Assembly (NCBI RefSeq): GCF_004027225.2 | Contig: NC_044278.2 | Span: 62,384,243 to 62,448,242, forward strand | Length of the DNA stretch: 64,000 nucleotides | Direction of reading: 5' to 3' | Origin: Strigops habroptila | Lineage: Eukaryota; Chordata; Aves; Psittaciformes; Psittacidae | Shown here: in pieces, positions 17,581 to 40,799 of the stretch | Numbering within the stretch: position 1 is the stretch's first letter | Layout of the letters: every line of letters begins with the position of its first letter | The notes under the pieces: generated by a model | The model's database searches: none | What the model saw: only the letters and a program-made list of their open reading frames with translations | What the model was told of the DNA's origin: nothing | Program-made: the position numbers and the translations under genes

Positions 17581-18262
17581 AACATCCACTTACACCCAGG
17601 AGAACTGTCTTTGTTTCACTACTAGAAGTTGTTATTTATTTGTTTTTCCAGTAGAATAGCCTTGTATTGCAATGATAATGTTTGGGTTACTTGGAATGAT
17701 TTCAAAGATGCTGAAGTAAGATTGAATCTTTAAGTAAATCTGAAATTGGAGAAGTCTAATTACCGTATATGGTACAGAGACACAAGATTGCTGTGTCTTA
17801 TAGCATATTTATGTTAGATGAAGGCCAGGATGCTTCCACCAGAGAACAAACATCACACACACACACACACACAAAGATATTAAAGAGAAGAAATCATTTT
17901 ACACCTTCACTGCTTGGACGTTTTAGGAGGTGGGAAGATGGCATAGGTTGACCTCCTTTACTACAGCGACAGTCAGACAGCCAGGTTGCAGAAAGAATCC
18001 AGTCGGAGGGGAGTATTTCTGTTTCAACACCACAAATGGTATTTGAGCCTTTCTTAGAAAAAATGGACATTCTGCATTTCAGAAACAATAAAAAAAGAAT
18101 AATCCTCGTGTAAGTATTTCCCCCCCACACCCTGACATTTCATGTTTAAATTTTTATAGTAGGGCTTTGCCTGTGTTCTAAGAGACTGAATGAAAATGAA
18201 TTTTATATCCTTGTTGGAACACAGGTCTCCCCCTGTGCATCTTTCCAAAGTAACATCTTCTC
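17581..18262. other. Intergenic with CA microsatellite
   Basis: It contains a (CA)n run at about 17,854-17,872. No gene is recognised. Confidence 0.5.
17854..17872. repeat. (CA)n microsatellite
   Basis: About nine tandem CA units. Confidence 0.85.
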
Positions 18263-18797
18263 GTGAGACCTCACTTGGAGTACTGTGTACAGTTCTGGTG
18301 TCCTCAACACAAAAAGGACATGGAGCTGTTGGAGCGAGTCCAGAGGAGGGCCACGAGGATGATAAGAGGGCTGGAGCACCTCCCGTATGAAGACAGGCTG
18401 AGAGAGTTGGGGCTGTTCAGCCTGGAGAAGAGAAGGCTGCATGGTGACCTCATAGCAGCCTTCCAGTATCTGAAGGGGGTCTACAAGGATGCTGGGGAGG
18501 GACTCTTCATTAGGGACTGTAATGGTAGGACAAGGGGTAATGGGTTCAAACTTAAACAGGGGAAGTTTAGATTAGATATAAGGAAGAAGTTCTTTACAGT
18601 GAGGGTGGTGAAGCACTGGAATGGGTTGCCCAGGGAGGTTGTGGATGCTCCATCCCTGGCAGTGTTCAAGGCCAGGTTGGACAGAGCCTTGAACCACGTG
18701 GTTTAGGGCAAGGTGTCCCTGCCCATGGCAGGGGGGTTGGAACTAGATGATCTTAAGGTCCTTTCCAACCCTTACGATTCTATGATTCTATGATTCT
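18263..18797 (+). mobile_element. CR1 LINE fragment with long ORF2 end
   Basis: The fragment begins in the [18 protein letters not shown] part of CR1 ORF2 and runs without a stop through 147 codons to [13 protein letters not shown], then the CR1 3' region and three tandem ATTCTATG units. It is the best preserved CR1 end in the window and therefore probably young. It lacks the endonuclease and reverse transcriptase, so it cannot move itself. Confidence 0.96.
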
Positions 18798-18811
18798 AAA
18801 ACAATAAAACC

Positions 18812-18976
18812 ATAAAATCACTGAAAGGTTTGGGTTGGAAGGGACCTTAAAGACCATCTAATTCCAACCCCCCTGCCATGGGCAGAGACACCTTCCACTT
18901 GATCAGGTCGCTCCAAGCCCCATCCAACCTGGTATTGAACACTGCCAGGAGTGGAGCAGCACAAGCTTTCTGGGTG
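18812..18976 (-). mobile_element. CR1 LINE 3'-end fragment, reverse orientation
   Basis: The sequence 'ggtttgggttggaagggacc' and the following 'caacctggtattgaacactg' is the reverse complement of the CR1 end. Its inner edge coincides with the left edge of the duplicated block that starts at 18,977. Confidence 0.88.
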
Positions 18977-20935
18977 ACCCAACAAAACCAGCAGCCAGTC
19001 CATGTCTCTGGGGCAGCAGAGGGAGCAGGCAGCCCTTACCAGAGGAGCAAACTGGGCATCTGCCTGTGCCAGCCTGTCTGCCCTTTCTTCTCTTGGCTGT
19101 GAAGGAGAGGTTAGCCAGGAGAAGAGGCATAGGGAAGATAGTGACATGCCATGAAACTAGTATCATTGGCACCACTATTTTTTATATCCGATCAGTTTTA
19201 GTTTCCAGGCTTATCCCTTAGAGGTGTTAATCAAAACTTTTGAAGATCAGCGCAAAGAGAACAGAAACAAGGCAGTTGCTTTGATGGCATCTTCCTCTTG
19301 ACACCTCCATCTACTGTTACAAATATTCCTATTACTGGTAAAACCAATAATTGAAGGGTAAAGTCCTAATGTTTATTATTAAAAATTACGAAGAGAAATA
19401 AACAGAGTGCAGAAAACACTGAATATAAACTCCTTGATGCTTAAATTATTTTTTTGTGCCATAACTGAGACTTCAGCAAGTTCGAATTGTTTTCCCTCTA
19501 CCTTTCAGAATTGCCAAGTACTACATATTAATTATTAAGTCTTTGCTTAATGGTCTTACATGATGTCATTGCTATTGCTCTTGGGAATTCCTATCATCAT
19601 TTTGTATAACTGGTTTTAATCTCTTACCTGTAATAAAAGTCAGACAGAGATTGATTCTGCAGCAAATAAAGCTGTCTAAACATGTGGTACTTTCAGTAAT
19701 TTGATGTAGAAAGATAGCTGCATCAATAATGCTTGCAGAAAATATTTTATGCTTTGCACACATACTCCCTTCACAAACTTCATTTCTTTCAGTTACAAAA
19801 GCTCAAACCAGATTATCTTATTTTAACATAAAATAAAAATGTCCATGGAAGAACAGGTGTCTTTTCCTCGATTTCATTTGAAAATCTCTCTCACTGGGGA
19901 CAAAGACTGTTCATTTTCTTCTCCTTTTTCTTCATACCAGAGCGGTAACAATGGATGCACAGCATTTCTGATTACATTAAGAGCAGAAGTTGGGCTGAAA
20001 ATTCCCTTTTGAGGATTCCACTACATCTCTCTCACTTGGCCTAAAATGAGAAGGAACTGAATTCTGGAAAGACACTTGGGATAATGCCCTTCAACGTTAA
20101 CATGTGTGTTTATGTGTAGTCCTACTGTTACCAAAGTGGGAATTCTACCTTTCCAATCATAGTATGTTCCAGGGGCTTATTGCCATCTTTATCAACTAGA
20201 TAACTAATTTTGATTTTTCTGATTTCAAGTCCGAGTCCTTAAATCTTGTGTCACTTTTCTTTCCAGTGCTGATGAGCCTGGTAACATGATAGCTTTTTGT
20301 GTGACTTGACATAAATCCAGTAAGTTCTCCATTTTTTTTACTATACCAAGATGGAGTTCCTTAAGTCTCTTACTAAAAGATCTTGGCCTTAGGTATCAAA
20401 TAACTGGGGGAAGGGCTTTTTTCTGTATCTTTCCCAATATTTACAATGACAATGCTAACACATACAGAAGCTGCTCACTATTGTTGTCACTGTATGTATT
20501 TGGATGCAACATCCCTTTCTAATCCATTATTAGTTTTATCTATACATCTAAAATCAGATGAGCTAGTTCCTTTGAACACCAAGTAGAAGACATACGCAGT
20601 TCTTGTCCATCTTGATACCCAGGACATTTTTAGGATCCTATATTTTCAGCATATAGTCTTACCTCCTATACATGTAGCTTGAATTCTTTATTCAGAAGAT
20701 GCGTAGTTTAACCATAACTTTTTTTGGGCATGCCCTGCTTGAGAAGCAATCCAGATTAATATGATGTTTTCACCATTTACTTCTTTTTTAGCCAGTATCA
20801 CTTCAAAAATACTTCTTCTGGGTTATTGAAGAAAACATTAAACAGAAGTACAATCTTACCTGATGCAGCTGTTCAGTCAGTAATAATGCCCCAAAACCTC
20901 TCTTTGATTCATCAGTAAACAGTTCTTAAGCCTTT
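18977..20935. repeat. Left duplicate, block 1 (TFDP1 downstream flank)
   Basis: This stretch aligns in the same orientation with 33,234-34,965. Matching is clear but with frequent substitutions and small indels. A 192-base piece at 19,696-19,887 is present only here. The block contains no recognised gene. Confidence 0.92.
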
Positions 20936-20971
20936 AACATACCACCTGTTGATGTTATAAAATATCAGATG

Positions 20972-21898
20972 TGAGAGAAGAGATTATACAGGAAAAGATA
21001 TTGCTTTTCACATCCTAGGTTACCAAAAGCTATAAGGATAAATTGCTACATCAAAGCAAAAAATCTGAGCCCTTTGTAGTGTAGATGCAGTACCCTGAGA
21101 CAGTTAGTTCTAGGTCTTGTGATGAGAGGAAGTGAAATGTTCTAAAATAACCCTAAAATTAGAAAAACCACAGAGCTTGTTAAAAATGCCCATGCGCGTT
21201 TTATTAATAAAAACTAACAGTGCCAAGGTTAAACAAGTCAAACAATTATAGTCTCTTTATATTCCATAAAATATTACAGAAAAGTTTATTTGTGTTTCAA
21301 TAAAAAGACTACTGTCTTAGAATAGGCAGCTGACAGTATTTGTGCAGTTAATTGTTTGTGAATAAATTCAAAAAGACTACCACCTGCCCTGAAATTCCTT
21401 TTATAAAAATGAACTATTAAAAATGATTGACAAATTTTGAGTTAAAAAACTTAAAACATTCTCTATATTTAATTTCAACTTTATAATAGATTACAGGAAG
21501 ATGCTTATGAAACAAATACAAACATTTGTTTCAGTACATGTCTTTATATGATAGACTTATAAGTATGTAAACAACTATATAATAAAAAGTTTCCAAAGTC
21601 TGCCTGTAAGAAATCAGGCAAATTTTACCATAAGCAATAAATCATTCCAAACCTTCAAGACATTTTATATAGCTGCACCAACTGGCAGTAAACATTTGCC
21701 AAAAACTTTGTTATTCATATGTCCCAACATACAGTGAAAAGCATATAAACTTGATGGAATCAAGATAGTTACAATTTCTGGGAAAATAAGTTTACAACAA
21801 TATTTCTGGAGTTTAACATGTAAAAAAGTTTGGTTCTTTGGACACTGCACGATTAATAAAAAACACTACTACATTAGCTTGCTATCTCTAAAAAAGTG
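20972..21898. repeat. Left duplicate, block 2 (TFDP1 distal 3' UTR)
   Basis: It aligns with 39,407-40,342. From 21,077 to about 21,711 I see essentially no differences from 39,499-40,133; after that the copies diverge with several indels. Most of the block corresponds to the distal 3' UTR of TFDP1. The 4.4 kb at 34,966-39,406 is absent between blocks 1 and 2. Confidence 0.94.
21180..21898 (-). pseudogene. Exonless TFDP1 copy: 3' UTR remnant
   Basis: This is a copy of the TFDP1 distal 3' UTR in the same orientation as the gene, including the polyadenylation signal (reverse complement of TTTATT at 21,200-21,205) and the GT-rich downstream sequence. The coding part of the last exon and the proximal 3' UTR are missing: similarity stops at 21,898 and resumes inside the last intron. 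No TFDP1 codon is found in 18,977-28,743, so this is a duplicated gene remnant made only of untranslated and intronic sequence. It could still act as a transcript end if something upstream is transcribed. Confidence 0.75.
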
Positions 21899-21905
21899 AG
21901 TCCCC

Positions 21906-23662
21906 ACACTGAAGATCCATCTCCTGAATAAGCAAGTAGATTTGGAGAGTATCCACTTTCTTACTTGAATGTGTTCTTTTTCCACCAAAATACACACACA
22001 TATTGTAGATATGGCCTGAAATATCTTGTTCCTAGATGAGTTAACTGTATCCAGAAGTATTCTGTTTTAAGAACCTGAACATTTCTGCCTCCATTATTAC
22101 TTGCTATTTAGCCAATATTTTTTAATAGTTTTTCAAACTCCTTTTTCAGAAGTTTGATAAACTATCAAACATTGTCACAAATTCTTGACAAAATATTTTT
22201 CTACAAATCACAAAAATAGTATGTCCAATTTGAAAGACATTCATAACTTAAAAACTGCTTTCAAGAATATGTTTGCTAGTCATTTTTCAATCCAGCTGAT
22301 GCACACAATCAATCAGGCACACTGTTGTATGGAGCTAATTCAACGGTCTGTCACCACACAGAATGAAATTGCCCCAGAAGCTCACAAGGAAAACGTATGT
22401 CCAGTGAGACACTTTCAAGAGTTTCTGCTGCTCCGCACGCTTATTCAGAAGGAAGATACTAAGATACCTGTCTAGCTGTGGTCAGGTAACTTATATTCTC
22501 CATAACTGTCTGCAGAAGCAGCATCAAAAACAAAGAAATTATTCTTGTGTTCTTGTGAACTTGGAAGGTACAAACCCCAAAACCTGTCTCCCTCTTTTGG
22601 ATAAAGATGGAACCAGACTTCATAGCCTGTGCTTCTTAGCAAGACGAAGAAACCAGAAGGAAGGCATCGGTAGCAACACCTTCAGTCTTCTGCAGCCTTT
22701 CTTTGAGAGCTTGCTAGAGAAGTTTACAGCCTTTATTTGCCCTGGCAGCAATTTTTGGTACCAGAAAAGCTACACATCTTGTAGTTTCCTATTGCTGTGA
22801 ATATTTATATATGTACTATAATTAAACATAATTTGTCACTCCCCTTTTCCAACCTTCTAAGAAACAGAGCTAGAAGAGTTCTCGTGCTTCTCACCAAGAT
22901 AATGAACCACAGTCAGCCATCGTTTTTCTACTGGACTCTGGCTAGTAGTGGCCTATTCAAATTTGAAAGTTTTAAAAATGCATGGGCTCTTTTTCACTAA
23001 CACCATGCACATTATCACAGAAGGAAACGCAGTAAGACCAGAAGATTTTATATATTGTGTAAGTTCTGCTTTTCTAAAGGTATTTTGGCAGTATTCTCAC
23101 TCAGCTTCAGTTCCCTAGCACAAAACAGGATGAATTCCTCACTTTTGGGCTGCAGGAATGGGCTGGAGCATGAACCACGCTCCTCACCATTGCTAGTCTT
23201 GCACATCCTTGAGCTTAACTGTTTCAAGTTACTTCTTTTTTAATTTTTTCTCTTTGCATTCAAGTAAACCTGTCACCTACAAATAGGTGGTTTTTAAAAA
23301 AATGCTTTCAGAAATGTAACTGTATTATCCTCTTAAAGTAACCCAGATACTGTATTTTCAGAAGGACCTCCTTCCAACTCTGACAGAGGGCAGATGGGAG
23401 AGGAAATGCTGCCAGAAGACTATTTTTAGAGAACAAGAATAAAACTGTATTCCTTGTCAAAAGAAATCCCATCAATACAGGATTTTTGCCTTTAAATGCA
23501 AATGGATTAAATGTCCAAAAAATTAGGACTTCCTTAAGAATTTTGCTGGTATAGCAATTTCCCAAACAACTTACAAGGCAGAGCCTGCCAGTGATTCTGA
23601 CATAAAACACTCATCATTGTGGAAAGAGCCGAAGTAATCTAGAACTTGCTCTCTCCTCTCCA
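21906..23662. repeat. Left duplicate, block 3 (part of TFDP1 last intron)
   Basis: It aligns with 41,676-43,410, inside the intron before the last TFDP1 exon. Similarity is very high over about 22,200-23,200 and lower at both ends. The 1.3 kb of the right copy holding the last coding exon (40,343-41,675) is absent before it. The open frames in this block recur in the other copy only because the DNA is similar. Confidence 0.94.
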
Positions 23663-23667
23663 GAGAA

Positions 23668-26600
23668 GAAAAACATGCCCAATGCCCCAGCATAGGACAT
23701 ACCCTTCTGAGACATGCTGGTCTCCAGGAGATAAAATTTGGCCAGTACAAGCCTTTCTAAGAGACTATTCCCACCTTTCCTCTAAGTGTTCCCTCCAAGC
23801 TGAAAGAGGGAATTACAGAACAAAAGTCTTCAAGCAAAATACATGCAACACAGCAGACCAACCCTGCAGGGAAAGCTGCTCTCTCTCTGTTCATAAGCTA
23901 TCCACAATGAGCATCAATAGGTAAGCCATGTAAAACAAAAATTCAACTACCAAATACCAAGCCAGGTATCCAGCAATTGGATGCTCCATGCCAGTTTAAA
24001 AACAAAACTAAACAAAGAAAAGAAGCAACAAAGACTGACTGCAGAAAAAGAATAATGGGACAAACAAGTCTTAAAATACTGGACACATCTGTCATGTGGT
24101 TGTCAGGGCAGAGCTCAGCAGTTCTTTCCCTCACATCACTTTTAAAGGGGCCAATGGGGCCAGAAGGGCTTGGCGCAACTCCCATTCCACTTCCTTTTCC
24201 CTGTTATACAATACAGAAGCAACAAACAAACATTTTTACGACAGTTCTATCACAGGAAGGGCCCTAATGACTCCTTCATGCCTACCATCCCTCTTACGCA
24301 TTCAGGCAGTCCACAGAGAGTTGAGACAACTCCAACCTTGTTTAAGCCCTTGCTTTCCAAAAGGCTTGTACTTCTTAGCTGCTATTACTATACCATATCA
24401 AACTAATAGCTTCACACGAGAACCTGTTCTCAGTCCCCAAACCTGCACGCAGCAGCCTGTATTCTTCCATTATTAACCAACTTTCCAGTGCTCTTTCAGA
24501 AAGTCAGCAGCTATCTAGTTGGTAATAGAAGTCTCTTATTCCTTCCTGTCCTTTCAAGTACACCCAACACTAGCACAGCCTGCTTTGTGTGTGTTCTTCC
24601 CCTCTGCAGAACACACCAAAGCAATATAAACTACCCTGGCTATTAGTGCTTGTGTATCTTCTCAGCTTCCTGGAGGTCAACATGTCTGTTTTTATCTCCT
24701 CCTCACTGCTTTAAAAACATCAAAACAATCTGAAGATTCTATTTCCAGTATAAAATCAGAGTTGTGCTTTCCAGTATTAAAACTCCTGATTTATTTGATC
24801 ACCTCTCCTTACCTCTTATGGTTCTTGTTGCCCATACACTTTCTAGTTCTCCTACCCTTCGAGATTTATTTTTGCAGATGACAGGGATGGACACGTTTTT
24901 CATGACAAAGGAATGCCATATGTTGTTGTAGAACTCCATAGTACATTTCCTATTTTATTGCCTGTTCTTTTCCAAACAATTCTCAGAATTCAATGTGCTT
25001 GTTCCCCACTAAACACCGACACAACATTTGAATAACATACCCTACCACGACTTCAAGATCTTCTAGAGTACTAACAGCTCCACTTGGGGCACTTCTTGTA
25101 TCTAGTTTGGTTTCCACCAGTTACTAACCCATGGGAGGACTGTCCCATTCTGACACCTTAGTTTCTTTAACAGGCTGATTAAGGACCTTGATAGCCAAGG
25201 GGTTTTTGTTTTTATTTTTAAGAAATCCAAGGACATGGCACTGATTAGATAACCCTTATCCACATGGTTGTTGACTCTTTCAAAGCATGACTTTGAAAAG
25301 ACATTAACTTTGTAACTTTCCTTCCCTCACCCCCCCCATCCCCTCCCCCGCCCCTAGAAAAGCCCTGTAAACGCCTGCCAATTATCACGTTTGTCTTACT
25401 CCTCTGTTATGTGCTCAACCAATTTGCCCAACTGAAGTTTGACTTACTCATCTGCAGAAATTGATGCAGGAAATATGGCTTTCTATCCTTCTGGTACTAC
25501 ATGAATTATACATACACTGAGTTAGCAGCACAGAAGTATCAATCCTAGGTCCTTGAAGAATTCACAGGTAAGATAATTCTCTGGCCATGATGATTTATAA
25601 CCATTCACATTATCAAGTTTTTCCTAAGACAACAACTTCTAGCAGCACTTCAAGTAGGACAACTTCATACAGAACAGTATTGCCATGAGACTCTCCATAA
25701 CCATCTTGACCACCTATTGACTCTTCAGATTCACTCAGAGACTTTGTTCTTCTGCTGTGTTCAAGAATAAAGTAATTCTTTATGCTATCATGCTGTTTCT
25801 TAAAATCTTTCATGAAGTCAACAAATGCAGAAATTTTGCACCTGTGACTCCATGCAACAGCAGACATCAGGGTTCAATGTGCAGAAAAGGACCGGGGTGT
25901 TATTTGTGAGACTCTCATCACTGCCTTCAACTGTAAAATGGAGGGTTACAGAGATGACAGAGCACACAACAAAAGGAAAAGAGAGAACAGTCACAAGTTG
26001 TTGCACAGCAAATTCCAAACACATATGAGGAAAAAAGTCACAATGAGAAGGGTAAAGCACAGCAGCAGGATGTCTGGGAGGTTCCCTGGAGATATATGGA
26101 AAAAATTCAACTACTGAAGACTTTGTGCTTTGAAGTTGGCCCTGGTTTGATTGTAAGGTTAGATTAGATGGCTTCCAACCTCCTTATTCATTTCATTCTG
26201 TCAACACAAACAGCTGTATTGAATCTCTGTGAAGGGAAGACTACACACTATGCTGCTTCAAGCTACATTAACATTTCCTGTGGTGCTGTGCCAGAGTTAA
26301 TCATGTACCTGAACCAATCGGCTGCATACAGAAACGCATGTCTGCATGCAACGCAGTGCAATGCACGCCTGTCTGCGGCACAAACTGACTGGCAAGGAAA
26401 GACAAATGTAACTGGAAGAACAGTAACACAATTCACAGTTCGAAGCAAAGTCGAAGTCAGGCTGTAAAAGGTATCATTCTAAATATGAAAAAGTGTAACT
26501 GCTTAACAAGGGGGGGGAGGAAAGACAAAATTGAGGGGGTTTGGTGGTGGGTTTTGGAGGTTCGAGTTTTGGCTTTTTTTTGGGGGGGGGTTGGGGTTGG

Positions 26601-28743
26601 GGACGGTTGCGGTGTTTTGGGTGTTTTTTACTGTTTTATTTGCCTCTGCCCACGTGCATCCTACTGTTTTCTCATTTACCTCATCTGCAAATCTTTTTCT
26701 CGTATGCACTTTCACCAACAGCTCACAATGCTCTGGTTTCAGAGTGGTTTTGTGAGCGTGGCTTTGCTGCTTGGTTATTTTATTAACTTCACTTTGCCAG
26801 TGACTGACAGCTCAGTTTCTCAAAGGAATTTTACTAATTGTTTGTTAATGACTCTAACAGCAATCACTGCAATCCAGTTGTTACCCTGTACTTTGTGGCC
26901 AGCATATGGTGTGTGTAACAGCATGGAGAAATTAAAACCACAAGTTTGCAAACAGCTTTGCTGGCTCTTTTTTGACTACTCTTCCTTTTCAAAACAAAAG
27001 CATAATTAATATTGCTAATTTTCGCAAGTCTTCCCACCACCACCACCTCCACCCCATTCTAAAGACCTCAAAAAACAGGGGAAAAGGCCAAATAAAGCAC
27101 AAAATACATTTATACAGAAGGATATAACTACTACTTAAATTCTCAGGCTCCCAAACATCACCAGTTTGGAAGATTACTCTTAGTAACTTATAAGCTATCA
27201 TTAGACCTACGGGGAAATAGAACTCAATCAACATGAAGTTCCAGAATGCTTCCAAACAGAAGATAATGATACAGATGGGATCAAGGAGTAATGCAGAGTA
27301 ACACTTGCACAGCAGAAGGAGCAGCACCCTTTAACAAAACCTGTTATTTATCTGTCTACAAACTGTCCCATGTAAGTGCTCTCTTCATACAGGGTGCAGC
27401 AAATAGCTTTTGGTTACTGGCTGCATTTAGGGGAGGACTTCTGAACTGGGCCTTTGCTTGCATGTAGAAATAAATCATTTTACCAAAAAGACAGAATCCT
27501 TTGCAGAGTTTTAGCGGTAAAGAGAACTGGTGATACAGCCAACTACGAACATTTTAAATAGCCTGAGATGCCACAGGAAGACACAGCACATCTAAAAGTA
27601 GAGAAAGGAGTGCCCTCTACAGATAAAGCAGTAGATCTCTGCAAGAGCTGACTGCTCCAGTTCACGGAACAGCAGCAGCTCTGAATTTGCCATTTCAGAT
27701 CAAAGAGGATGAACCGAGGTATTTCTTGCTTCAGAAGCAGGAATGCCATCCGTTCTACGTGCTCTACCACCATCTGATGTAATCTGTCTTCATGTTTTCT
27801 TTATTTACAAAGGACAGAGCAGTCAACAGGACAAGTCTGTTTCCTGATAACAAAGTCTAACAAACTAAGTCTTGTCAGTCTGTCTTCTAGCATAGAAGCA
27901 ATATAGTATGGGGGAGAACTGGAATTGATAAGCAGGTAATTTTGCAAGCACTTCCTCAATTATTATAACCTCACAAAAGAATGTACAGAATAAGAGAGTG
28001 GTTTGTCAGAATGCAAAGTAATTCCTACTGTCTCCTGCAACAGTCTCAACCAAACTGTCCAGCAGACAAATCTGTAAGTAAATACATGATCAACGGTTAG
28101 GAGTTAAGCAAAAGGTTATTTTAACAAAAGTCTCAAGAACTCATAACTAAGGGAGTATCAGTTGAAGAGCCAATGGGTCTCTTTGGGAAACCAAAAAAGA
28201 CCAGTGAGACTTTCCGTGAACAAGAGATCTAAGGAAGTGACACAGACTCTAGATTCCATAGTGATCATCACTTCTGGGATGTGCCATCTGGAATACTACA
28301 TTCTTTAGTTTTGGGAATTAAAAAAAAAAGTTAATAGGAATAGAATTTCTTTAAAGCCAGAATACCTGCACTGCTTCAGATGCAAATGTTGATATAAGAT
28401 TACACAGAAGCTATGAGAATTATCTGAAAAATGTTATCGATTCAGTTTTGTCAGTCTTCTGAAGGTGGATTTTTTCTTCTGTTTGCTAATTGGAAGAATC
28501 TCTGGAAGGCTCCAAGTCTTCACTGCTGTCCAAAACCGGATTCATTCTCTATCTCATTTCAGAGATTGTGCACCTGTGTTTGAACGGTGGTGAAGCAGAG
28601 CTCAGAATGTCATCTATATTCAAGATGGGAAATAATGCACAGAAAGTAAGAACTTCAGAGCCACGGAAAACTATTACAGCCATCAGGACACAACCAAGTA
28701 GGTTGAGGGAAGTCCTCAACTCATCTGCGCAACTACCACTGAA
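23668..28743. repeat. Left duplicate, block 4 (TFDP1 5' intron)
   Basis: It aligns with 57,841-63,120, which lies in the intron upstream of the first TFDP1 exon visible in the window. Five bases separate it from block 3, while in the right copy 14.4 kb with eight coding exons lies between the corresponding points. Long stretches (for example 23,977-24,476) translate identically in both copies, and others near 25,320-25,380 differ strongly. The 227-base piece at 62,304-62,530 is absent here (junction at 28,139). No gene is recognised in the block. Confidence 0.95.
26509..26633 (+). repeat. G-rich tract, left copy
   Basis: Several runs of four to nine G lie within about 120 bases, interspersed with T-rich spacers, which could form G-quadruplexes. 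The counterpart at 60,651-60,775 has different run lengths, so the tract is changing faster than its surroundings. Confidence 0.7.
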
Positions 28744-29009
28744 AGAAATGTCTTAAAGTGACATCCTGAAACAACATGAGTGTGGTAGTGCCTCCACCCT
28801 CCTCTCTCCTGGATCCCTCTGCTTCCCCAGGAATTCCTGTTAGGCCCCAGCCTTTGCACAGGTGTAAGGAGTTGGACAGATGGGTGCTTCGTAGTCGTAT
28901 CAGGAACTCTAATACCCTTAATTGCCTAACAAAGGTTATAAGGGGACACACAGATGTCAGGAAAGCCTGAATACTCCCTTATCATCATCAGGAGTTCTTT
29001 TGAGATGGT
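28744..29009. other. Spacer after the left duplicate
   Basis: Similarity to the right copy ends at 28,743. No gene or repeat family is recognised in this short stretch. Confidence 0.35.
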
Positions 29010-29830
29010 AAATCATTCCCCAAGAGAGATATGATACCAGGATGCAAATTTACACTGACTAAAGCCAATCATCTTACAACCCTATACATAGCGGCCCCAA
29101 GAGAGGGTACCTTTGAGCTCTCCAGGACCGCAGCAGGTGGCGACCCAGTGATCTCCCTCTGAGTGGAACACCTCTCAGAGGCCATGAACTCGGAGTTTAT
29201 GAAATAGAGGGCTCATCTGCCTAGGCTGTTGCTGTTGCCCACTGACACTCAACCCTTTGCCCATTGAGGAGTGCTGAGAAACCTGATGTGAGGATGTTAT
29301 TAGTAATATTACTTTTCACTGCACCTGAGGGAAATGTTTAACATAGGTATATGTATATATGTATATACAGCTATATATCCATACATCTCCACCTTATTGT
29401 GTTGTGTTAGCTTAGATACTTAATTGTAAGTACGTGCTTCAATAAGGTGTTTGAGAAATCTTGTGATTCATTTTAACAATAAGAACTGCTGTTAAATTAC
29501 ATTTGTCATCCTTTAGACATAAGCCATTGACCACGTCTGAAGCTAAGTCTAGATCCATCTGCACCTAGACCAGTCTCCGAGAGGAAGTTTTAGAAAGCAA
29601 GAGAATTTGCCTGAACCTTGTGACTCAATGGGAGGCTTGCCCTTGTCCTTTTCACCTTTAACCCCCCTACCTTGATTTCCTTTTAAATTCCATTAGACAT
29701 AAACTGTTGTGCATATCTGACACAAGGACTAGGTCCAACTACACCTAGGCTCCGCCAGGAGTTTAGGAAGCAAAGGGTCTAATCTGAACCTCATGACCAG
29801 TGCGGTCTATTGGCACTAACCTTCCAAATT
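29010..29830. mobile_element. LTR-like remnant with an internal imperfect repeat (tentative)
   Basis: The stretch has features seen in LTR ends: a region with 'caataaggtgtttgagaaat' and 'caataagaactgctgttaaa', and then two diverged copies of a segment of about 150 bases at roughly 29,493-29,660 and 29,685-29,820. Both contain 'ttagacataa', a 'cacctag' motif, an 'aggaagttt'-type block and 'ctgaacct'. There is no coding sequence. A retroviral LTR is the likeliest source, but the family is not identified. Confidence 0.4.
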
Positions 29831-31356
29831 CATGGCTCTTGTTACAATTCGGTTTTCCTCCCGCCTGCAGTTGCCAAAACCACTCCCCCTGCATCCCCTG
29901 AAAATGGTTTGTGTGAAATCCCTGGTCCGCCTCTCTGCATGGCGTAATGGATGTTAGCCGTGGAGCAGAGAGAAGACGGCCAATGGGGTGGCCTCTGGGC
30001 TGCAGGGTTGGTTTCTGCCATGGCCTGAGAGAAGAGCAATGGCACTGGGTTTGTGCTTGGGAGCCGGGTGGCAGAGGACACGTCAGGGGTGTGCAAGAGC
30101 TGTGCCCAGTGCAAGGCCACCAAGGGCAGGAGCAGCCCCGGGGCCTCCTGGGACTGTGTGGAGCCAGCACCCAAACCCATCCCAGAAGGGGTGCTGGTCG
30201 GAGGGGTGGCAGGTGGGGCTGCGCATGGAGGGGGCCTGTCATCCCCCTGTCACAACGGCACCCCTGTCACAACGGCACCCCCCCGTCACAACAGCACCCC
30301 CCGTCACAAAGGCACCCCCCTGTCACAACGGCACCCCCTGACACAACGGCACCCCCCTGTCACAACGGCACCCCCCCGTCACAACAGCACCCCCCGTCAC
30401 AAAGGCACCCCCCTGTCACAACGGCACCCCCTGACACAACGGCACCCCGCTGTCACAACGGCACCCCCTGACACAACGGCACCGCCCTGCACCGCACAAT
30501 GCCCTGGGGCGGGATAACAGGGGGTGAGGCTCGGGCACGGGGCAGAGCTGGCCCAGGGGCAGGGCCGTGAGAGAGGAGGGCGGGCGGCTGGACAAGGCTG
30601 CTGCAGGTTCTCCAGTGCCAGGGCAGCTCCCAGTGGGGCCGCGACCAGAGTTCTGCTGACAAAGGGAAATCCTCTTCAGCTGGGCAGCACTTGCAAGGCC
30701 AAGGGAACACCCTCTTGAGGGGCACTGCCAAGCTCACTGCACTCATCCCTTGCAGAGCCAGGGCAGTAGCTATAGGTAGTGGGATGCACGGATGCTGCAA
30801 GGGGATGCAGTGCTATGGAGCACTCGCTGATGCCCTGCCAGGCACAGGAAGGATTATTGGAGCCAAGGTCGATCAGGCTGGGTGCCTTTGTCGCTCTGGG
30901 AAGCCCCCGCGATGGCCGCAAGTTGAGGGAGAAGAGCGCTTGGGCACCTGGTGGCAGGCGGGAGCAGCCTGTGAGGCGAGGAGGCAGGTCTTGCTCCCGC
31001 GCTCAGTGAATAGCCAACTGCCAGCGCTGGGGTCAGCAAGGAATTAACCCCTGGGTCTTTTTTCCCTTCTTCTGCAGCACCGAGCATGGCACTTGTCAGG
31101 GATCTTGTGGTCTGCCTGGGCTGGGTCACTGCCTCTGCTCATGCAGCACGAAGATGCCTCTTGTGCCCTGCAGCTGCCAGCGGGAAGGCTTTTTTCAACC
31201 CATGGTGGGCTAAGAGTGTCCTCTGCAGCACTGAGCACAGCCCCTTGCCAGGCCTCCTTTGGGCCACTGTGGGCAGGTGCTGCTGATCCCGCTCCACAGA
31301 CACCTCCCCCCAAAAACCCCCACAAACCCCCAAACCAACAAACCAACCAGAAATGA
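29831..31356. other. GC-rich stretch with minisatellite, no gene recognised
   Basis: The DNA from about 29,930 to 31,080 is clearly richer in G and C than its surroundings. It carries the minisatellite at 30,245-30,490 and many overlapping open frames in all frames, as expected for stop-poor GC-rich DNA. CpG density does not look high enough to call a CpG island with confidence. No protein family is recognised. Confidence 0.5.
30245..30490. repeat. GC-rich minisatellite with higher-order period
   Basis: Units of 17-19 bases built on GTCACAACGGCACCCC are repeated about 13 times. Variant units (AACAGC, AAAGGC, TGACAC) recur in the same order: a set of five units of 93 bases occurs twice in a row, with its marker GTCACAACAGC at 30,285 and again at 30,378. 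Open frames crossing it encode repetitive HNGTP-type peptides and are products of the repeat. Confidence 0.92.
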
Positions 31357-31809
31357 CCAAAAGAAGAAAGGAAAAAGAAAGGGGAAAAAAGGGAAACAAA
31401 AGGAAACAGAAAGGTAAGTTGGGAGGGAAGGAAAAGGTAAAAACCAGAAAACATGAAAAAGGAAAAAAGATAAAACAGGAATGCCCCCCCCCCCCCAAAA
31501 AAAAACCAAACCAAACCAAATAAACAAGAAAATGGAAGACAAGGGGAAAAGGGAAAAAGGAAAAGAAAGAAGGGAGAAATCAGAATGAAGGGAGAAAGTA
31601 AGGAGAAAGATGGAAGAAATAATGAAGAAAAAAAAAGGAAAAAGAAATGAGAAAGAGGGAAGAAACAAAGGAAAGGAGAAAGGAAGAAGAAGGAGAAAGG
31701 AAGAAGGAGGAGAAAGGAAGAAGGAGGAGAAAGGAAGAAAAAAGGAAGAAGAAGAAAGGAAGAAAAAAGGAGGAAGGAGGAAGAAAGGAAAGAAAGAGAG
31801 AAGAAATCA
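31357..31809 (+). repeat. Long purine tract (A/G-rich)
   Basis: About 450 bases consist almost only of A and G on the + strand, with GAAGAAGGA- and GGAGAAAGGAA-type units between 31,670 and 31,790. A poly-C/poly-A switch lies near 31,482-31,505. Long minus-strand open frames rich in Phe, Leu and Ser are products of the composition. Such tracts can adopt triplex structure. Confidence 0.88.
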
Positions 31810-31855
31810 AGTGTCTTACCATGCTCACGGTAAAGATTTTTTTTTTTTCCCCTAA

Positions 31856-32091
31856 TGACTAATCTAAATCTCCCCTCTTCCAGTTTAAAGCCATTCCCCC
31901 TTGTCCTGTCACTACAGGCCCTTGTAAAAAGTCCTCCTTCAGATTTCTTGTAGACCCCTTCAGGTACTGGAAGTTGCTCTACGATCTCCCCAGAGCCTTC
32001 TCTTCTCCAGGCTGAACAAGCCCAGCCCTCTCAGCCTGTCTTCATAAGAGATGTGCTCCAACCTTTGGAGCATCTTTGTGGCCCTCCTTTT
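31856..32091 (-). mobile_element. CR1 LINE fragment, reverse orientation
   Basis: It matches the reverse complement of the CR1 ORF2 end: 'agtttaaagccattccccct', 'aggctgaacaagcccag' and the LIKRLEHLS-like end at 'gagatgtgctccaacctttg'. Both the 3' tail and the 5' part are missing. Confidence 0.9.
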
Positions 32092-33233
32092 GGTAACAAA
32101 ACACTAATTCATGCTCAAAGGTAATTAAATGTTGTCTGTAAACACAACAGGTATGCAGATCCACTGGATCTGGTTCTTTCAGTACAAAGATTGTCACCCT
32201 GAATTTAGATTTCTCTTGAACTTTTAGCCACATGAGATTATTCTCTTTCTTCACTGGAATGACAAATTTGTTATGGAGCAAGGTTTGTGGCTAGTGTATC
32301 TGAAGTAGAAAAGCCCTGTGAAAGCTCCAAGTGTATTAATCTGGGTATAGTTAATATTAGCTTGCCTGGAAGCCAAATATAAGCAGAATGACCAGCATGC
32401 AAGTATGTTTTAATATTGCGATGGCACAGCCCAAAACTAGGTACAAGCATTTCATGTAATGAGCAAGGCAACCCACCAAGCGGCAAAAACAGGCTTGCAC
32501 AGTTGCACTTTGGAGCCATCTAAGTGACAGAAGCTACAAGATAAGGCCCAAAATAAGCACAAGGGAAGGAAAACAGGGAGGGCATCCTGCCCAAGGCACA
32601 AGAGGCATGGTTGGCAAAAGCAAAACCAAGGAGCAGCTGAATCCTCCTTCAGACGCGGTAGGAGGGGAAGAAGCGTAAAACACCAACGATGGGAGAAATG
32701 AAGACAGACACTTCCTCCAGCGTAAGAGGTCTCCAGCCTGATGGCCTCCGCCTTGGAGACTAACAAGGACCTTGGCCATCAGTGCCAGCTGCACAGCACC
32801 AGCTCCATGCTGCTATATAGTTAATTTAGTGTACAAGTGTTATAGACTAACACTTTTATATACATAGCAATAACAATTAATAATATGCAAGAACTAGCCA
32901 TTAGCATGAAGTGCACTGTTAAGGGATGAATTCGGTACTTTCGTTTACAAGTTTAAAACTGGCCTCATTTGTCAGTCTTCTAAGCACTCTCACTGCAAGT
33001 CCCCAATTCCTTGAGACAAACACACAGAAGCAAGAACATTTAGAGATGTATCTACATATAGATGTATACATATACATAAATTCAGTTGCAACATTAGAAA
33101 TATTTGATTAGACCAGATGATATAAACAGGAAAAACCTGGCAGACTGCATGGGGAACTGGAGCAGGGTATTTAAGAACGATACACGAGTACACCCAAATT
33201 CCCGAGCCTGGTCAGATGCTGATCAGCTAGGAC
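32092..33233. other. Spacer before the right duplicate
   Basis: No gene or repeat family is recognised. The stretch has several short open frames and a TATA/ATA-rich stretch near 33,050-33,080. Confidence 0.4.
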
Positions 33234-34965
33234 ACCCAACAGACCCAGCAGCCAGTCCATGTCTCTGGGGCAGCAGAGGGAGCAGGCAGGAGGAAACTGG
33301 GCATCTGCCTGTGCCAGCCTGTCTGCCCTTTCTTCTCTTGGCTGTGAAGGAGAGGTTAGCCAGGAGAAGAGGCATAGGGAAGATAGTGACATGCCATGAA
33401 ACTAGTATCATTGGCACCACTATTTTTTATATCCGATCAGTTTTAGTTTCCAGGCTTATCCCTTAGAGGTGTTAATCAAAACTTTCGACGACCAGTGCAA
33501 AGAGAACAGAAACAAGGCAGTTGCTTTGATGGCATCTTCCTCTTGACACCTCCATCTACTGTTACAAATATTCCTATTACTGGTAAAACCAATAATTGAA
33601 GGGTAAAGCCCTAATGTTTATTATTAAAAATTCCGAAGAGAAATAAAGAGTGCAAAAAAACCTGAATACAAGCTCTTTGATGCTTAAAGGATTTCTTTGT
33701 GCTATGAGACTACAGCAAATTCAACTTGTTTTTCCTCTACCATTCAGAATTGCCAAGTAATATATATGAAGACTTTGCTTAATGGTCTCACATGAAGTCA
33801 TTGCTATTGCTCTTGGGAATTCCTATCATCATTTCGTATAACTGGTTTTAATCTCTTACCTGTAATATAAGTCAGACAGAGATGGATTCTGCAGCAAATA
33901 AAGCTGTCTAAACATGTGGTACTTTCACTCTCACTGAGGACAAAGACTGTTCACTTCTCTTTCTTCATACCAGAGCGGTAACAATGGATGCACAGCATTT
34001 CTGATTACATTAAGAGCAGAAGTTGGGCTGAAAATTCCCTTTTGAGGATTCCACTACATCTCTCTCACTTGGCCTAAAATGAGAAGGAACTGAATTCTGG
34101 AAAGACACTTGGGATAATGCCCTTCAACATTAACGTGTATTTACGTGTAGTCCTACTGTTACCAAAGTGGGAATTCTACCTTTCCAATCATAGTATGTTC
34201 CAGGGGCTTATTACCACCTTTATCAACTAGATAACTAATTTTGATTTTTCTGATTTCAAGTCCCAGTCCTTAAATCTTGTGTCACTTTTCTTTCCAGTGC
34301 TGATGAGCCTGGTAACATGGTATCTTTTTGTGTGACTTGACATAAATCCAGTAAGTTCTCCTTTTTTTTTTTTACTATACAAGACTGAATTCCTTCAGTC
34401 TCCTACTAAAAGATCTTGGCCTCAGGTATCAAATAACTGGGGGAAGAGCTTTTTTCTGTGTCTTTCCCAATATTTACAATACCCCTTTAAAATGACAATG
34501 CTAACACATACAGAAGCTGCTCACTGTTGGTCTCACTGTATATTTGGATGCAACAACCCTTTCTAATCCATTAGTTTTATCTATACATCTAAAATCAGAT
34601 GAGCTAGTTCCTTTGAACACCAAGTAGAAGACATATGCAGTTCTTGTCCACCTTGACTCCCAGGTCATTTTTCGGATCCTCTATTTTCAGCATACAGTCT
34701 TAGCTCCTGTACATGTAGCTTGAATTCTTTATTCAAAAGATGCGTAGTTTAACCATAACATATTTTGGACATGCCCTGCTTGCCAAGCAACCCACATCAA
34801 TCCGTCCTTTTCACAGTTCACTTCTAACCAGTATAATTTAAAAATATTTTTTACTTTTCTTCTGGTTATTGAAGAAAACATTAAACAGAAGTACAATCTT
34901 ACCTGATGCAGCTGTTCAGTCAGTGATAATGCCACAAAACCTATCTTTGATTCAGCAGGAAACAG
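33234..34965. repeat. Right duplicate, block 1 (TFDP1 downstream flank)
   Basis: It aligns directly with 18,977-20,935, with many small differences. It lies downstream of the TFDP1 polyadenylation site and has no recognised gene. Confidence 0.92.
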
Positions 34966-36276
34966 TTTGTAACATATTTAAAATCAGAATGCAAGGAAGT
35001 AGAAAACGCTTAAATATGTTGAAACATATCCATAATTTCCTTAATTGGCTAAAAAGTTGCGATCTCCTCCCACATTCATTTGATACAACCTATTCCGTAC
35101 TTTGTCATTAGTACTTAACCTTCCAGGCCTTTAATTTTCTTTTAGCTGTTTCCTTCGACAGTTTTCTAATGAGGTTCAGAGCTGATCTCAGGCTGTCTAG
35201 AACACATTTGGACAGTACTTCCTCACATAACTTTGAAAAGTGGCACTCAAGCATTATTTTAGTCTTTCAGAAGTCACTATTTCAAGGTTCATTAAAAATC
35301 AGCATTGGAAAAATAGAGATCCACCCTACCTAGCATCAGCTACCTGGGTTGCCTGTTTCAAGAGCGTTAAGCTTCAAATATCTGCTCAATGTTCTACTCT
35401 AACACATTCTCTCAAGTTCACACGATAAAAGAACACAAAGCTTGCCCAAAGTCTGCAACTTCGCTGTCTTTTAACATGCTGCAATGCAGGAACTTTCCAA
35501 TCTGCTCTAAGCAGCCCTCCTGATGGGCCAGCGCTGGTATCACTGCACTACTTACAGCGGTGTACCATGATCTGTATGCAGTGATGTGTTAAAAGATCAA
35601 ATCTTTGAGCCTAAGTTTGGATTTCAGCCCATTCAAAACATCCAAAAATTGAACTAACAGACAAGTCATAGCAGAACAAAGAAAAGTACTTGTAAAGGTA
35701 TTACGTGGGTGATTTCCGATTAACACCAGTTTCTATTCTCTGCCATATCAGGATACTATGCCCTTATCACAGCAAAGCTGTGAATCAATAATCAAGATTT
35801 TCTGTGACAAATGTTTCACTTGTTAGTGCTGATGTACTTTGAACGTCCCTCTGGGCACAGCAGCTCCCCAGCTGAGCGACAGGCAGATGCAGCTAGGTGA
35901 CAACCATCACGATGCCAGATGAGAACTACCACTGTAACCAAACGCTGGAAGTAGAAAACCCCCGTGCATGTCAATTGTTGCCCTTCTTCATTCTGCTCTC
36001 AGCATCAGCTGTATTTCTGCTTTTTAGAACTCACATCTTAAACGAAGACAAGTCTTCACTTCTATCCCCTCATCTAGCTACCTTTTCTATCATAGGAGTT
36101 TGGCAACTTTTGATGGTTTCTGAATATGAGCTGAGCTTCCATTCTTTTTCTGCTGACTCTTTGCAGGCAATCCAGATGACCCACTTGTTAGGCTGTTCAT
36201 GACACTGATATATGGTATTTTCTAACATGTTTTTTGTTTTCTTTTCATCTCTCTTATGGGATCCATATGGTAATTC

Positions 36277-36660
36277 AGGCTGGAAAGCATCCCAGATCAT
36301 CTCTAGTCCATCCCTGCTTAAAACATGGGAAGCTGTGAGGCCAGACTCTTCACTGCTCAAGGCTTTTACCCTGTCAAGTCTTGAAAACCCTAAGTCAGCA
36401 CAACTTCTCTGGGAAACCCATTCCACAGCTTGACTCTGATGGAAATAATCTTGCTTCATCTTGTGTGTGTTGTCTCTCATCCTCCCACCAGGCACCACTG
36501 TGGATTGACTCCATCTTTGCAATAAGCTGCTTGAAGTACTGAAAAGCTGCCGTAAGGTCTCTTGAGGCCACCTTTTCTTCAGGCTTAACAAGTCTTTCTC
36601 CCTCAGCCCCTCCTCATATAGCAACTGCTCTGGGCCCTTGAGCATCTTGGTAACCCTCCA
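36277..36660 (-). mobile_element. Old CR1 LINE remnant
   Basis: The order of motifs follows a reverse-oriented CR1 end ('cagatcatctctagtccatc', 'gaaacccattccacagcttg', 'gaggccaccttttcttcagg', 'gggcccttgagcatcttgg') but with many substitutions, so this is an ancient copy or another CR1 subfamily. Confidence 0.7.
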
Positions 36661-38288
36661 TAATCCACAGAAGCTCGAGAAGGAATCAGAGCCCAAGAAT
36701 AACCTTTGAAAAATCTTAAATCCCCAAATTTACAAAATAATGACATTCACAGTTGCTGCTCTCATTGTGCTGGCTTGTTGATAAATGAATTACAATTCAA
36801 CTATTTCCTGATAATGAATGACGATTAAAGTAAAACAAGCAAGGCTTTAACAATAAAGCACCTGTGATGATACTCACATCACTGTGGAAGCAGATGGATT
36901 TGAGAGGAGCTGAAAGTTCTTAAACTCAGTGTAGTAGTCAAGATAAATGGCACTCATAAGCAGATGAGAGAAAACAAATCCCTACAGGAAGCAATGAACT
37001 ATCTGGAAAAAACTGTATATACTCTCCTTTTTACTGATGATCATTCCAGTATTATTACATCAATGCTCTCCCCCCGCTCCTTTTTTATCTTAAAAGCAGC
37101 CTCCTATTTTCGGATTTCCCACTAAAGTGAAGATTTCACAATGTATCATGTGTTCACTGATAAAGAAACAGATTTATCTTGTGACAGTTACCTCCTATGA
37201 ACAATTTTATTATAATAAAAGGTCATCTTCAAAGACCTGTGTCCTATCAGCTCCATTGATTTTTTCTTCTCTGCAATGGTTGCCTTTCGTTGAAGGAAGA
37301 TTTTAAAGAAGTTTCCAAAGTCACATTTTCTTTTCTTTAGTTAAGACAAGCAAATTCCTAAAGAAAAAGCAAACCAGTTTACTTTTGAAACAAAAAAACC
37401 CAAGAAATCCTTCTTAACTTGTTACACGTGTCAAAATGGAAGGACAGTCTTTCAAAGCTCAGCATCACTTTAGAAAAACAGTGAAAGATGCACGTTCCCA
37501 GGATTTATCTGCAGAACAATTTCACAGATACAAATACACACTTTGCAACTTTTCTTCTTCTTCAGATCACAAAAAGTACTGACAAATGAAGAGAGTAACA
37601 GTACATCCTTTCCTTGTCAGGATTTTTTCCCCAAACTGAGCCCTTATTACTATTCTCATTACCTTTACCATCATTTAATCTCCCTGAAACGGAATCCTAG
37701 TTTCTCTCTCTTTGCAGTATTTTCTACTTCCACAGATTTTCTCAACAATTTCCTGTCCATGATTTCCTCTGGCATTCTGTTCCTGCTTTTGATCTTCCTT
37801 TTCCGTCTGTACCCATGGTGCCACCCTTTTCAGAGATAAGAACCATGTAGTTATCTCCTACCTTCCAGCTCCTTTCACACCAGGCCTGGCACTATTACAT
37901 CTGCACTACACATTTTGCTCCACTCCTTTTTTTTTCCTGTTTGAATAAAGTTTCTACTACTAGTCTTTTTTGTAGTTTTTGACTAGTCTTTTTTTACTTA
38001 CTTCTTCCCAACTTCACCCTCTGTGAAAACTCTAAGTTTCAATCTGTTCTTCCTTTTCTGGTTCCTTCCTACTATTTCTTAAGAGTCTCCTTGACTTGAA
38101 GTCTTTCCTCATTTCCACCTCCTTCCTCACCATTGGTCTCTTTTCTCCCTCCTCACCCTCCTTTTTCACCTAAACACAATGACCAGGTAACTGCCTGAAA
38201 TCTAGCAAGTCATCAAAAATTCAATAGACTTGCTCTTGTTACTGGTAGTCACCCTTACTAGAATGCTCTCCTGAAACCAAGGTAATAT

Positions 38289-38341
38289 AGAATCATAGAA
38301 TCATTTAGGTTGGAAAAGACCCTTAAGATCAAGTCCAATCA
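38289..38341 (-). mobile_element. CR1 LINE 3'-terminal fragment
   Basis: The text 'agaatcatagaatcatttag' followed by 'gttggaaaagacccttaaga' is the reverse complement of a CR1 3' terminus. Only about 50 bases remain. Confidence 0.75.
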
Positions 38342-39406
38342 CAAATATAATTAGATTTGTTCCCCAAAACCACTCCAATGCTGTTTGGTTAAACTCTCAA
38401 ATTCCTTTCAGAGATTCATCAGCAACCAAAAGCAAAGTAATGTCTTTGAAAATGTATGTTTTGCCACACTTTCACTCTCCACCTTGACCTTGTCTCATCT
38501 GAGATCTATTCCACTAATAAAAACCAAAAGGAAACTGTCAGATGCTTTCAGCTTTTCTTACCTAGCATCCCTGTACTCCTCTTTGCAGGTAAATCTTCGA
38601 TCATACAATGGAGATTTAGAATGTAAGGGAAAAAAGTAACTCCCATGGCCTGTCAAAAGTTCCTTGATAACTATTGTTGGACTCTGCTGAGAAAACTGCC
38701 ATTCAACAGCAAAGATAATTTGAATCAGCTGATTCAACTGTGACAAGAACCTTGCTTCTTGCACTAGCACTGCAAAGAATGACATCTTTGGTGAGAAGCC
38801 AAGCATGCAATTAGCCCCGACCAAATGGTTTTCCCAGGCCCATAAAATTAAGTAATTTGCTTGTTTCATTCATATTACAAGGTTTGATACAATTAAAAAG
38901 CATTCACTGTGTATCAACTGCTCTGTAGTAAGCACCCACACCCCCTTAAAACAGAAGGGTGGTAAGACGAGTCGAGACGCAGTCCCTCAGAGAAAAAAAA
39001 CCACATGTAACATACTTCATATTTACCACAGGGTTTAAGTGCATCCAGGATCCCTAATCACAGACAGTGCAGCTATTAGACCATAAGTTACCTCTGAGCA
39101 ACTCCCTGGAGTTTGTGGAAGCAACAAATCTTGACTGACGGCCACCTGCAGAGTGACTGGGCCAATTTGTAAGCTGCACTTTCAGGTGAGTACAGAGCAA
39201 AAAATGTTCAGGTGAAGGTGAAATATATGGAAAGTAGATGAAGACCTGTTTTAAGGACATGCGAATGTACGATGGAAAGCCAGGACTGAGGAACATGGGA
39301 TGAAAATTAGGACAGTAAGTCTGGGATTTTAAACAGAGAAGCTGGACTGGAGTATTAAGACTGGCCTGTCACGCTGAGTAGTGACATGATTGAAGTAGAG
39401 AGACAT

Positions 39407-40342
39407 GAAAGAAGAGAGTATACAGAGAAAGATATCATAAGTTACCAAGAGCTGTAAGGACAAATTCCTGTATCAAAGCACAAAATCTGGGCCCTCTGTA
39501 GTGTAGATGCAGTACCCTGAGACAGTTAGTTCTAGGTCTTGTGATGAGAGGAAGTGAAATGTTCTAAAATAACCCTAAAATTAGAAAAACCACAGAGCTT
39601 GTTAAAAATGCCCATGCGCGTTTTATTAATAAAAACTAACAGTGCCAAGGTTAAACAAGTCAAACAATTATAGTCTCTTTATATTCCATAAAATATTACA
39701 GAAAAGTTTATTTGTGTTTCAATAAAAAGACTACTGTCTTAGAATAGGCAGCTGACAGTATTTGTGCAGTTAATTGTTTGTGAATAAATTCAAAAAGACT
39801 ACCACCTGCCCTGAAATTCCTTTTATAAAAATGAACTATTAAAAATGATTGACAAATTTTGAGTTAAAAAACTTAAAACATTCTCTATATTTAATTTCAA
39901 CTTTATAATAGATTACAGGAAGATGCTTATGAAACAAATACAAACATTTGTTTCAGTACATGTCTTTATATGATAGACTTATAAGTATGTAAACAACTAT
40001 ATAATAAAAAGTTTCCAAAGTCTGCCTGTAAGAAATCAGGCAAATTTTACCATAAGCAATAAATCATTCCAAACCTTCAAGACATTTTATATAGCTGCAC
40101 CAACTGGCAGTAAACATTTGCCAAAAACTTTGTTAATTCATATGTCCCAACATACAGTGAAAAGCATATAAACTTGACGGAATCATCATGTTAGATATAA
40201 TTTAAGGGAAAATAAGTTCACAACAACATTTCTGGAATTTAACATGTAAAAAAGTAGGACGTATCTTTCTTGTTTGGTTCTTTGGACACTGCGTGATTAA
40301 CAAAAAACACTACTACATTAGCTCACTATCCCTCCAAAAGTG
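39407..40342. repeat. Right duplicate, block 2
   Basis: It aligns with 20,972-21,898 and covers the end of the TFDP1 3' UTR and adjoining flank. The near-identical part is 39,499-40,133. Confidence 0.94.
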
Positions 40343-40799
40343 GCATCATCAAAATACACTCCAAATAAATTGCCATTCAGTGTATTCATTTTCCACAGAA
40401 GGATAGCATTTTATTTCTCAATGATGTGTCTACATTTTCTTTAGCAAACTTCGCAAGAACATTTGGGGCAAAATCCATTTTCCTTCAAGTAAAAAAAAAA
40501 GGCAAACCCAAAACAAACAAAAAACAACCAACAAACCAAAACCCCCTAAAACAAGAGTAAATAAAGGCTCTGCATTAACACACTGGTATCAAAAACACAC
40601 GTCCACACCACATTTAAAAATATCCTACATAAAACAATCCTTGTTTGCTTATCAGAGGTGCAATTTCTAAACTTAGAACTGCTTACCAATATTCTCCTTG
40701 AGGGATGGGGCAAAGTAATTTGAGACACTTCTCCCTAGAACAATTTATTCCTGAAGCTTGCTGAATTTTAACAAAAAAATAGTCTACAAGCAAAGGGCA
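39605..40799 (-). other. TFDP1 3' UTR (probable extent)
   Basis: It runs from the stop codon at 40,800-40,802 to a candidate cleavage site just past the polyadenylation signal at 39,622-39,627. The length of about 1.2 kb is what I would expect for a vertebrate TFDP1 3' UTR. An A-rich, C-containing stretch lies at about 40,489-40,553. Confidence 0.6.
39622..39627 (-). terminator. Candidate TFDP1 polyadenylation signal
   Basis: AATAAA on the - strand (TTTATT on +). It is followed on the - strand by a GT/T-rich element (CTCTGTGGTTTTTC) at a suitable distance. Confidence 0.6.

Follow-up and report, generated by a model that had tools for sequence, protein, structure and literature searches.

Duplicated (non-processed) pseudogenes, or partial gene duplicates, are an established category of gene copy. 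Complex insertions with microhomology and templated junction bases have been described in people and ascribed to replicative repair in PMC5120786, and interlocus gene conversion is, according to parts of PMC10172114, widespread in human segmental duplications. The minimal matching segment for conversion is given in passages of PMC3924818 as about 200 bp in yeast and rodents, with a rate strongly reduced at about 80% identity. Here a 64,000-nucleotide stretch of the Strigops habroptila genome was analysed (NCBI RefSeq assembly GCF_004027225.2, contig NC_044278.2, positions 62,384,243 to 62,448,242 of the forward strand; hereafter the window), in which a block at 18,977-28,743 copies noncoding parts of the TFDP1 locus. 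The block lies in what looks like an insertion into a CR1 element, between TFDP1 and a Na,K-ATPase beta family gene near 11.9-13.3 kb that we take to be ATP4B. The reading favoured here, to which we give a probability of about 0.72, is a templated insertion of TFDP1 noncoding DNA into the CR1, of the type attributed to microhomology-mediated break-induced replication (MMBIR), followed by interlocus gene conversion.

The locus resembles the insertions of fork stalling and template switching (FoSTeS), MMBIR and chromoanasynthesis, as portrayed in PMC5120786, in that DNA from elsewhere stands in one site with little loss and, less clearly, in the microhomology or short extra bases at its junctions. 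It differs from FoSTeS/MMBIR patient events in being old, with aged junctions, and in having its pieces in source order, a picture that later deletion would also give. As in interlocus conversion between segmental duplicates, near-identical tracts lie on a more divergent background; unlike usual segmental duplicates, one partner is without nine exons, so that exchange is limited to introns, 3' untranslated region (UTR) and flank. With duplicated pseudogenes it shares the form of an intron-bearing partial copy beside its parent, but none of the nine exons is kept and the copy sits inside a transposable element, not in plain tandem. The locus looks like a new example combining two known processes, replicative-repair insertion and interlocus conversion, and not like a new kind; what sets it apart is that a single 64-kb window shows the site as it was before insertion, the source, the exons that are missing and the homogenised tracts. 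No earlier description of the locus was found, by title or abstract, among the papers listed for TFDP1 duplication, partial duplicates with intronic sequence and bird gene conversion in an open-access library.

In a self-BLAST of the window, 18,977-28,743 matched 33,234-63,120 in six collinear same-strand pieces (929-7247 bits, gapped identity 90-95%), with the following features.

33,234-63,120, plus strand: source region at the TFDP1 locus, the gene itself being on the minus strand (BLAST, tblastn, Pfam).
18,977-20,924, plus strand: copy of the TFDP1 downstream flank (33,234-34,967) with 189 bp extra at 19,696-19,884 (BLAST, pairwise alignment).
18,977-19,695, plus strand: match 1, to 33,234-33,927 (self-BLAST).
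19,885-20,924, plus strand: match 2, to 33,925-34,967 (self-BLAST).
20,972-21,898, plus strand: match 3, copy of the distal 3' UTR of TFDP1 (39,406-40,342) with three polyadenylation-signal-like words (self-BLAST, alignment, hidden Markov model (HMM)).
21,903-23,662, plus strand: match 4, copy of the last intron (41,673-43,410) (self-BLAST, pairwise alignment).
23,668-28,139, plus strand: match 5, copy of 57,841-62,303, which lies upstream of the first exon seen and is taken as 5' intron; contains the longest near-identical tracts (self-BLAST, alignment, HMM).
28,136-28,743, plus strand: match 6, to 62,527-63,120 (self-BLAST).
28,140-28,743, plus strand: copy of 62,528-63,120 (BLAST, pairwise alignment).

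Four stretches of the right copy are absent from the left one (34,968-39,405, 40,343-41,672, 43,411-57,840 and 62,304-62,526), together 20,421 of the 29,887 bp of the source span (68%). The internal junctions of the left copy carry 47, 4 and 5 unmatched bases and one 4-bp microhomology. Conversely, the 189 bp at 19,696-19,884 occur in the left copy only, with no second copy found within the window by sensitive self-BLAST, and represent either an insertion into the relic or DNA lost by the parent locus. The 223 bp at 62,304-62,526 occur in the right copy only and have AGAA at both edges, as left either by a microhomology deletion in the relic or by an insertion with short target duplication in the parent. 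The polyadenylation-signal-like words at 39,895, 39,712 and 39,627 have their left-copy counterparts at 21,473, 21,290 and 21,205, respectively. An exact 27-base pattern common to both copies occurred twice in the window and at 0 places in viral and prokaryotic contig collections.

The site in which the block stands is marked by a single minus-strand CR1, split so that its later part lies to the left of the block and its earlier part to the right, both halves having the same orientation and complementary element positions.

18,823-18,981, minus strand: CR1 3' half, ending at the insertion in ACCCA (18,977-18,981), five bases that also begin the TFDP1-derived block (BLAST and MAFFT against four CR1s of the window).
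18,982-31,805, no strand: whole inserted DNA, 12,824 bp, between the CR1 halves (the rejoined CR1 aligns as one element).
31,806-32,085, minus strand: CR1 5' half (BLAST and MAFFT against four CR1s of the window).

The halves were joined in a script and compared with the four other CR1 copies of the window as a yardstick. Against the CR1 at 18,259, the separate halves gave 190 and 143 bits, and the joined halves (18,823-18,974 plus 31,807-32,085) gave 302 bits as one alignment. When the halves were lengthened, to 18,981 on the left and 31,806 on the right, the score rose to 322 bits with about 0-1 base missing; the ACCCA at the left edge can be read as CR1 and equally as the beginning of the copied TFDP1 flank. 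Since the halves rejoin with about 0-1 base missing, 18,982-31,805 has the look of a single clean insertion into a CR1 already in place, not of a tandem duplicate, which would make the left copy the derived one. About 9.5 kb of the 12.8-kb insertion is accounted for by the match to 33,234-63,120, sequence that is still present elsewhere. Classical transposition of the block was rejected, as no target-site duplication was seen at the cut CR1 and no base is duplicated there. The initial annotation had described 18,977-28,743 as a plain direct duplicate next to ATP4B, made of pieces of 33,234-63,120 with order and orientation kept. The copying, the order and the orientation are borne out by the six BLAST pieces; the copy is instead part of a 12.8-kb insertion cutting a CR1, and the cut halves carry the feature on to 31,805. 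As a separate observation, 18,259-18,981 consists of two CR1 elements tail to tail, the second being the one cut by the insertion.

Nine TFDP1 exons were located on the minus strand, over 40,818-57,484, by tblastn with a human protein query.

57,374-57,484, 53,027-53,152, 51,576-51,740, 51,232-51,378, 48,469-48,543, 47,037-47,189, 45,715-45,882, 45,038-45,127 and 40,818-40,946, minus strand: nine TFDP1 coding exons (tblastn; Pfam for three of the nine; joined protein), with edges accurate within a few bases and the last exon cut where the tblastn match ends.

All nine fall wholly in stretches absent from the left copy, and no TFDP1 protein match was found inside 18,977-28,743 by tblastn at E ≤ 10. 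When gaps of the four observed sizes were placed at random in 33,234-63,120, all nine exons were removed in 13.8% of 100,000 placements (P = 0.138), and a random placement of three gaps removed them in 13.4% of 100,000 trials (P = 0.134). Exon removal is therefore no more complete than random gaps of the same sizes would make it, and selection purging the exons is not needed to explain their loss. These results agree with the initial annotation in placing all nine exons in the missing spans, by tblastn and BLAST coordinates, and in treating selection against a second coding copy as possible but not needed. Its statement that the copy keeps no codon holds for the nine exons and is limited to them, the first coding part of TFDP1 not having been found in the window. 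It counted two missing spans, whereas four stretches are missing.

The two copies differ in a strongly uneven way, a mosaic that the initial annotation does not mention. Pairwise alignment of the six pieces gave 340 differences in 9,344 sites (3.6%), with the lowest value in the fifth piece (2.1%) and the highest in the second (7.3%). A two-state HMM with rates of 0.46% and 11.2% reached a log-likelihood of -1296, where a single rate gave -1460 and a separate rate for each of the six segments -1425, and assigned 6,692 of the 9,344 sites to the low state and 2,652 to the high state. Identical runs of 727, 680, 641 and 583 sites were present, the largest run in 2,000 within-segment permutations being 517, and 11 windows of 250 sites had at most one difference, where 0.46 were expected and 5,000 permutations gave no more than 4. 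The eight low-state tracts of 230 sites or more together held 17 differences in 4,930 sites and were homogeneous among themselves (P 0.74); low-state divergence is 0.34-0.46%. One of these tracts, 21,080-21,749 in the copy of the distal 3' UTR, showed 0 differences in 670 sites and one 1-bp indel. Indels, which were left out of the HMM, followed the same division, with 23 in the 2,652 sites of the high state and 15 in the 6,692 of the low state (3.9 times as many per site; Fisher P 3.7e-5). The eight long low tracts do not stand apart from the stretches between them in GC content or word complexity, the values of which overlap. Transitions exceed transversions in both states (19:4 in the low and 192:125 in the high state), which speaks against random sequencing error. 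Differences also tended to be more frequent towards the ends of segments: in the outer 50 sites 57 of 600 differed (null 26.9, P 0.013), and 52 of 500 did so (P 0.003) at the ten ends that border large gaps or the edges of the block.

Interlocus gene conversion would be the simplest cause of this mosaic, since that process acts on substitutions and indels alike, in tracts of such length and mostly away from the ends of homology. A tendency for differences to gather at the ends would follow if conversion requires some 200 bp of matching sequence, the figure given in passages of PMC3924818. A Kimura two-parameter distance of about 0.13, computed from the high-state counts, and the bird neutral rates of 2-3.9e-9 per site per year given in part of PMC2946954 would put the age of the copy at roughly 17-33 million years, and at the same rates low-state divergence would correspond to roughly 0.4-1.2 million years.

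Taken as a sequence of events, the favoured reading would begin with a break or stalled fork inside the CR1 between the convergent genes ATP4B and TFDP1. Repair may then have taken the TFDP1 locus, at distances from 1.4 kb upwards, as its template, beginning at the 5-bp match ACCCA, and would have ended by rejoining the CR1 with about no loss. The result would be a 12.8-kb insertion holding TFDP1 downstream flank, 3' UTR and intron DNA, with the exon-bearing stretches left out in the copying or else lost afterwards; the copy is taken to be without coding function. Some stretches would later have diverged by ~11%, and others, of about 230-1,000 sites, would have been made near-identical again by interlocus gene conversion.

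Several observations weigh against this reading. The comparison covers two sequences, so that conversion and the age given for it are putative, and local mutation rate, strong constraint or assembly mixing of copies are possible causes of the mosaic. Microhomology is present only at the left edge (5 bp) and at one internal junction (4 bp). Identity between the rejoined CR1 and the yardstick copies is only 71-78%, so that the figure of 0-1 missing bases depends on the alignment. Fifteen of the 38 indels fall in low-state sites, seven of them in long tracts. The end effect is uneven: for the outer 25, 50, 100 and 150 sites, P was 0.020, 0.013, 0.051 and 0.046 over all 12 ends and 0.007, 0.003, 0.019 and 0.012 over the ten ends at large gaps or block edges, values uncorrected for the four widths, and the mean distance of differences to the nearest segment end was not significant (P 0.22). 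The ratio of transitions to transversions is not the same in the two states (P 0.044), and pieces one and two have nearly equal numbers of each (17:17 and 38:36), which was neither predicted nor explained. Finally, the high-state patches were picked by their differences, which biases their rate and the derived age upward.

The alternatives are not mutually exclusive, one of them concerning the origin of the copy and others the mosaic or the assembly. The one that survives best, although it is unlikely, does without a templated insertion: the TFDP1 end of the locus would have been duplicated in tandem, and ordinary deletions would then have happened to strip the left copy of all exons. The direct orientation and collinear order are as such a duplication would leave them, the 4-bp microhomology at one internal junction is of the sort that an ordinary deletion may leave, and the random gaps described above take out all nine exons often enough. 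However, the left copy should at first have kept the CR1 5' half together with 32,086-33,233, and BLAST gave no match there; a subsequent deletion must then have stopped, to about one base, where the duplication broke, which is why templated insertion is preferred. The 3-kb tail of the insertion is also without a partner in the window, although one beyond 64,000 is possible.

A second alternative dispenses with gene conversion and takes the near-identical tracts as conserved noncoding elements under selection, the relic being a working regulatory duplicate. It draws on the tract in the distal 3' UTR with its polyadenylation-signal-like words and on the fact that two sequences alone cannot tell constraint from conversion. 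We consider it quite improbable, as most of a copy that has none of the nine exons would have to be under extreme constraint (the low state covers 6,692 of 9,344 sites), and as the tracts end abruptly while differences tend toward segment ends.

Allelic differences in birds are similar in size to 0.34-0.46%, and the low-state divergence has just this size, as might be found if the block were an assembly artefact, either an unmerged haplotype or a false join with consensus mixing of the copies; the material is also assembled sequence only. The initial annotation had named an unmerged haplotype as the main alternative. That standing is disfavoured by three features of the window: the ATP4B-side flank is not repeated left of 33,234, CR1 pieces aside (BLAST), the CR1 is cut without overlap or duplicated base, and the high-state tracts diverge by 11%. 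Furthermore, the differences are transition-rich beyond random error and there is no N in the window, so that an artefact of either sort appears very improbable. Least credible of all is the proposal that the exon-free relic persists as a conversion partner feeding or storing variants for the TFDP1 3' UTR and introns, only exon-free copies being tolerated because conversion from a copy with broken exons could damage a cell-cycle gene.

The identity of the parent gene is drawn from several searches. A Pfam scan covered five references, three of which are TFDP1 exons: 51,549-51,767, 51,199-51,381 and 45,685-45,903 matched E2F_TDP, E2F_TDP and DP, respectively, and one of the three has a further match, to a DP-2 chain in the PDB; for the remaining six exons the evidence is tblastn and the joined protein. 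Among the best 120 of 3,536 matches, the protein joined from the nine exons shared 99% identity over its full length with a Cinclus cinclus-named cluster (bird Dp-1) and 98% identity with a Crocodylus porosus-named cluster. The joined protein appears to agree with a bird origin, although its conservation is too high for proof; the CR1 elements point the same way. The stop codon of TFDP1 lies near 40,800. The first coding part (query residues 1-26) was found neither by tblastn of the whole window nor by searching 57,001-64,000 for a motif in the three minus-strand frames, and the first coding exon presumably lies beyond 64,000. On the other side of the insertion, Pfam assigns a pair of exons, at 11.9 and 13.3 kb, to the Na,K-ATPase beta family. 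No RNA families matched in the window at gathering thresholds (0 matches).

Beyond the TFDP1-derived pieces, the insertion ends in DNA of a different character.

28,744-31,805, no strand: insertion tail, 3,062 bp, with a 19-bp GC-rich minisatellite and purine-rich low-complexity DNA (self-BLAST, repeat analysis).

The minisatellite comprises 13 copies of its unit at 30,243-30,489, and some 400 bp of purine-rich DNA (31,363-31,790) lie just before the CR1 edge. No source of the tail was found within the window, where sensitive self-BLAST returned its own repeats and a weak 39-bp match at 33,043-33,081 (E 0.004); it may come from upstream of TFDP1, beyond 64,000. Two direct repeats of ~90 bp each, 70% alike, stand in the tail at 29,509-29,600 and 29,689-29,773, and the DNA around them looks by eye like a long terminal repeat (LTR) fragment.

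Since the empty site is legible from the cut CR1, the copy can be polarised and its point of insertion placed to within about one base. Divergent and near-identical stretches stand next to each other within the 9.5 kb of copied DNA, and the locus is in this way a compact record of both processes. With none of the nine exons present in the copy, conversion of any kind is confined to noncoding TFDP1 sequence, so that its rate and tract length would be measurable with little interference from coding selection. The mean divergence of two copies, here 3.6%, can understate their age several-fold.

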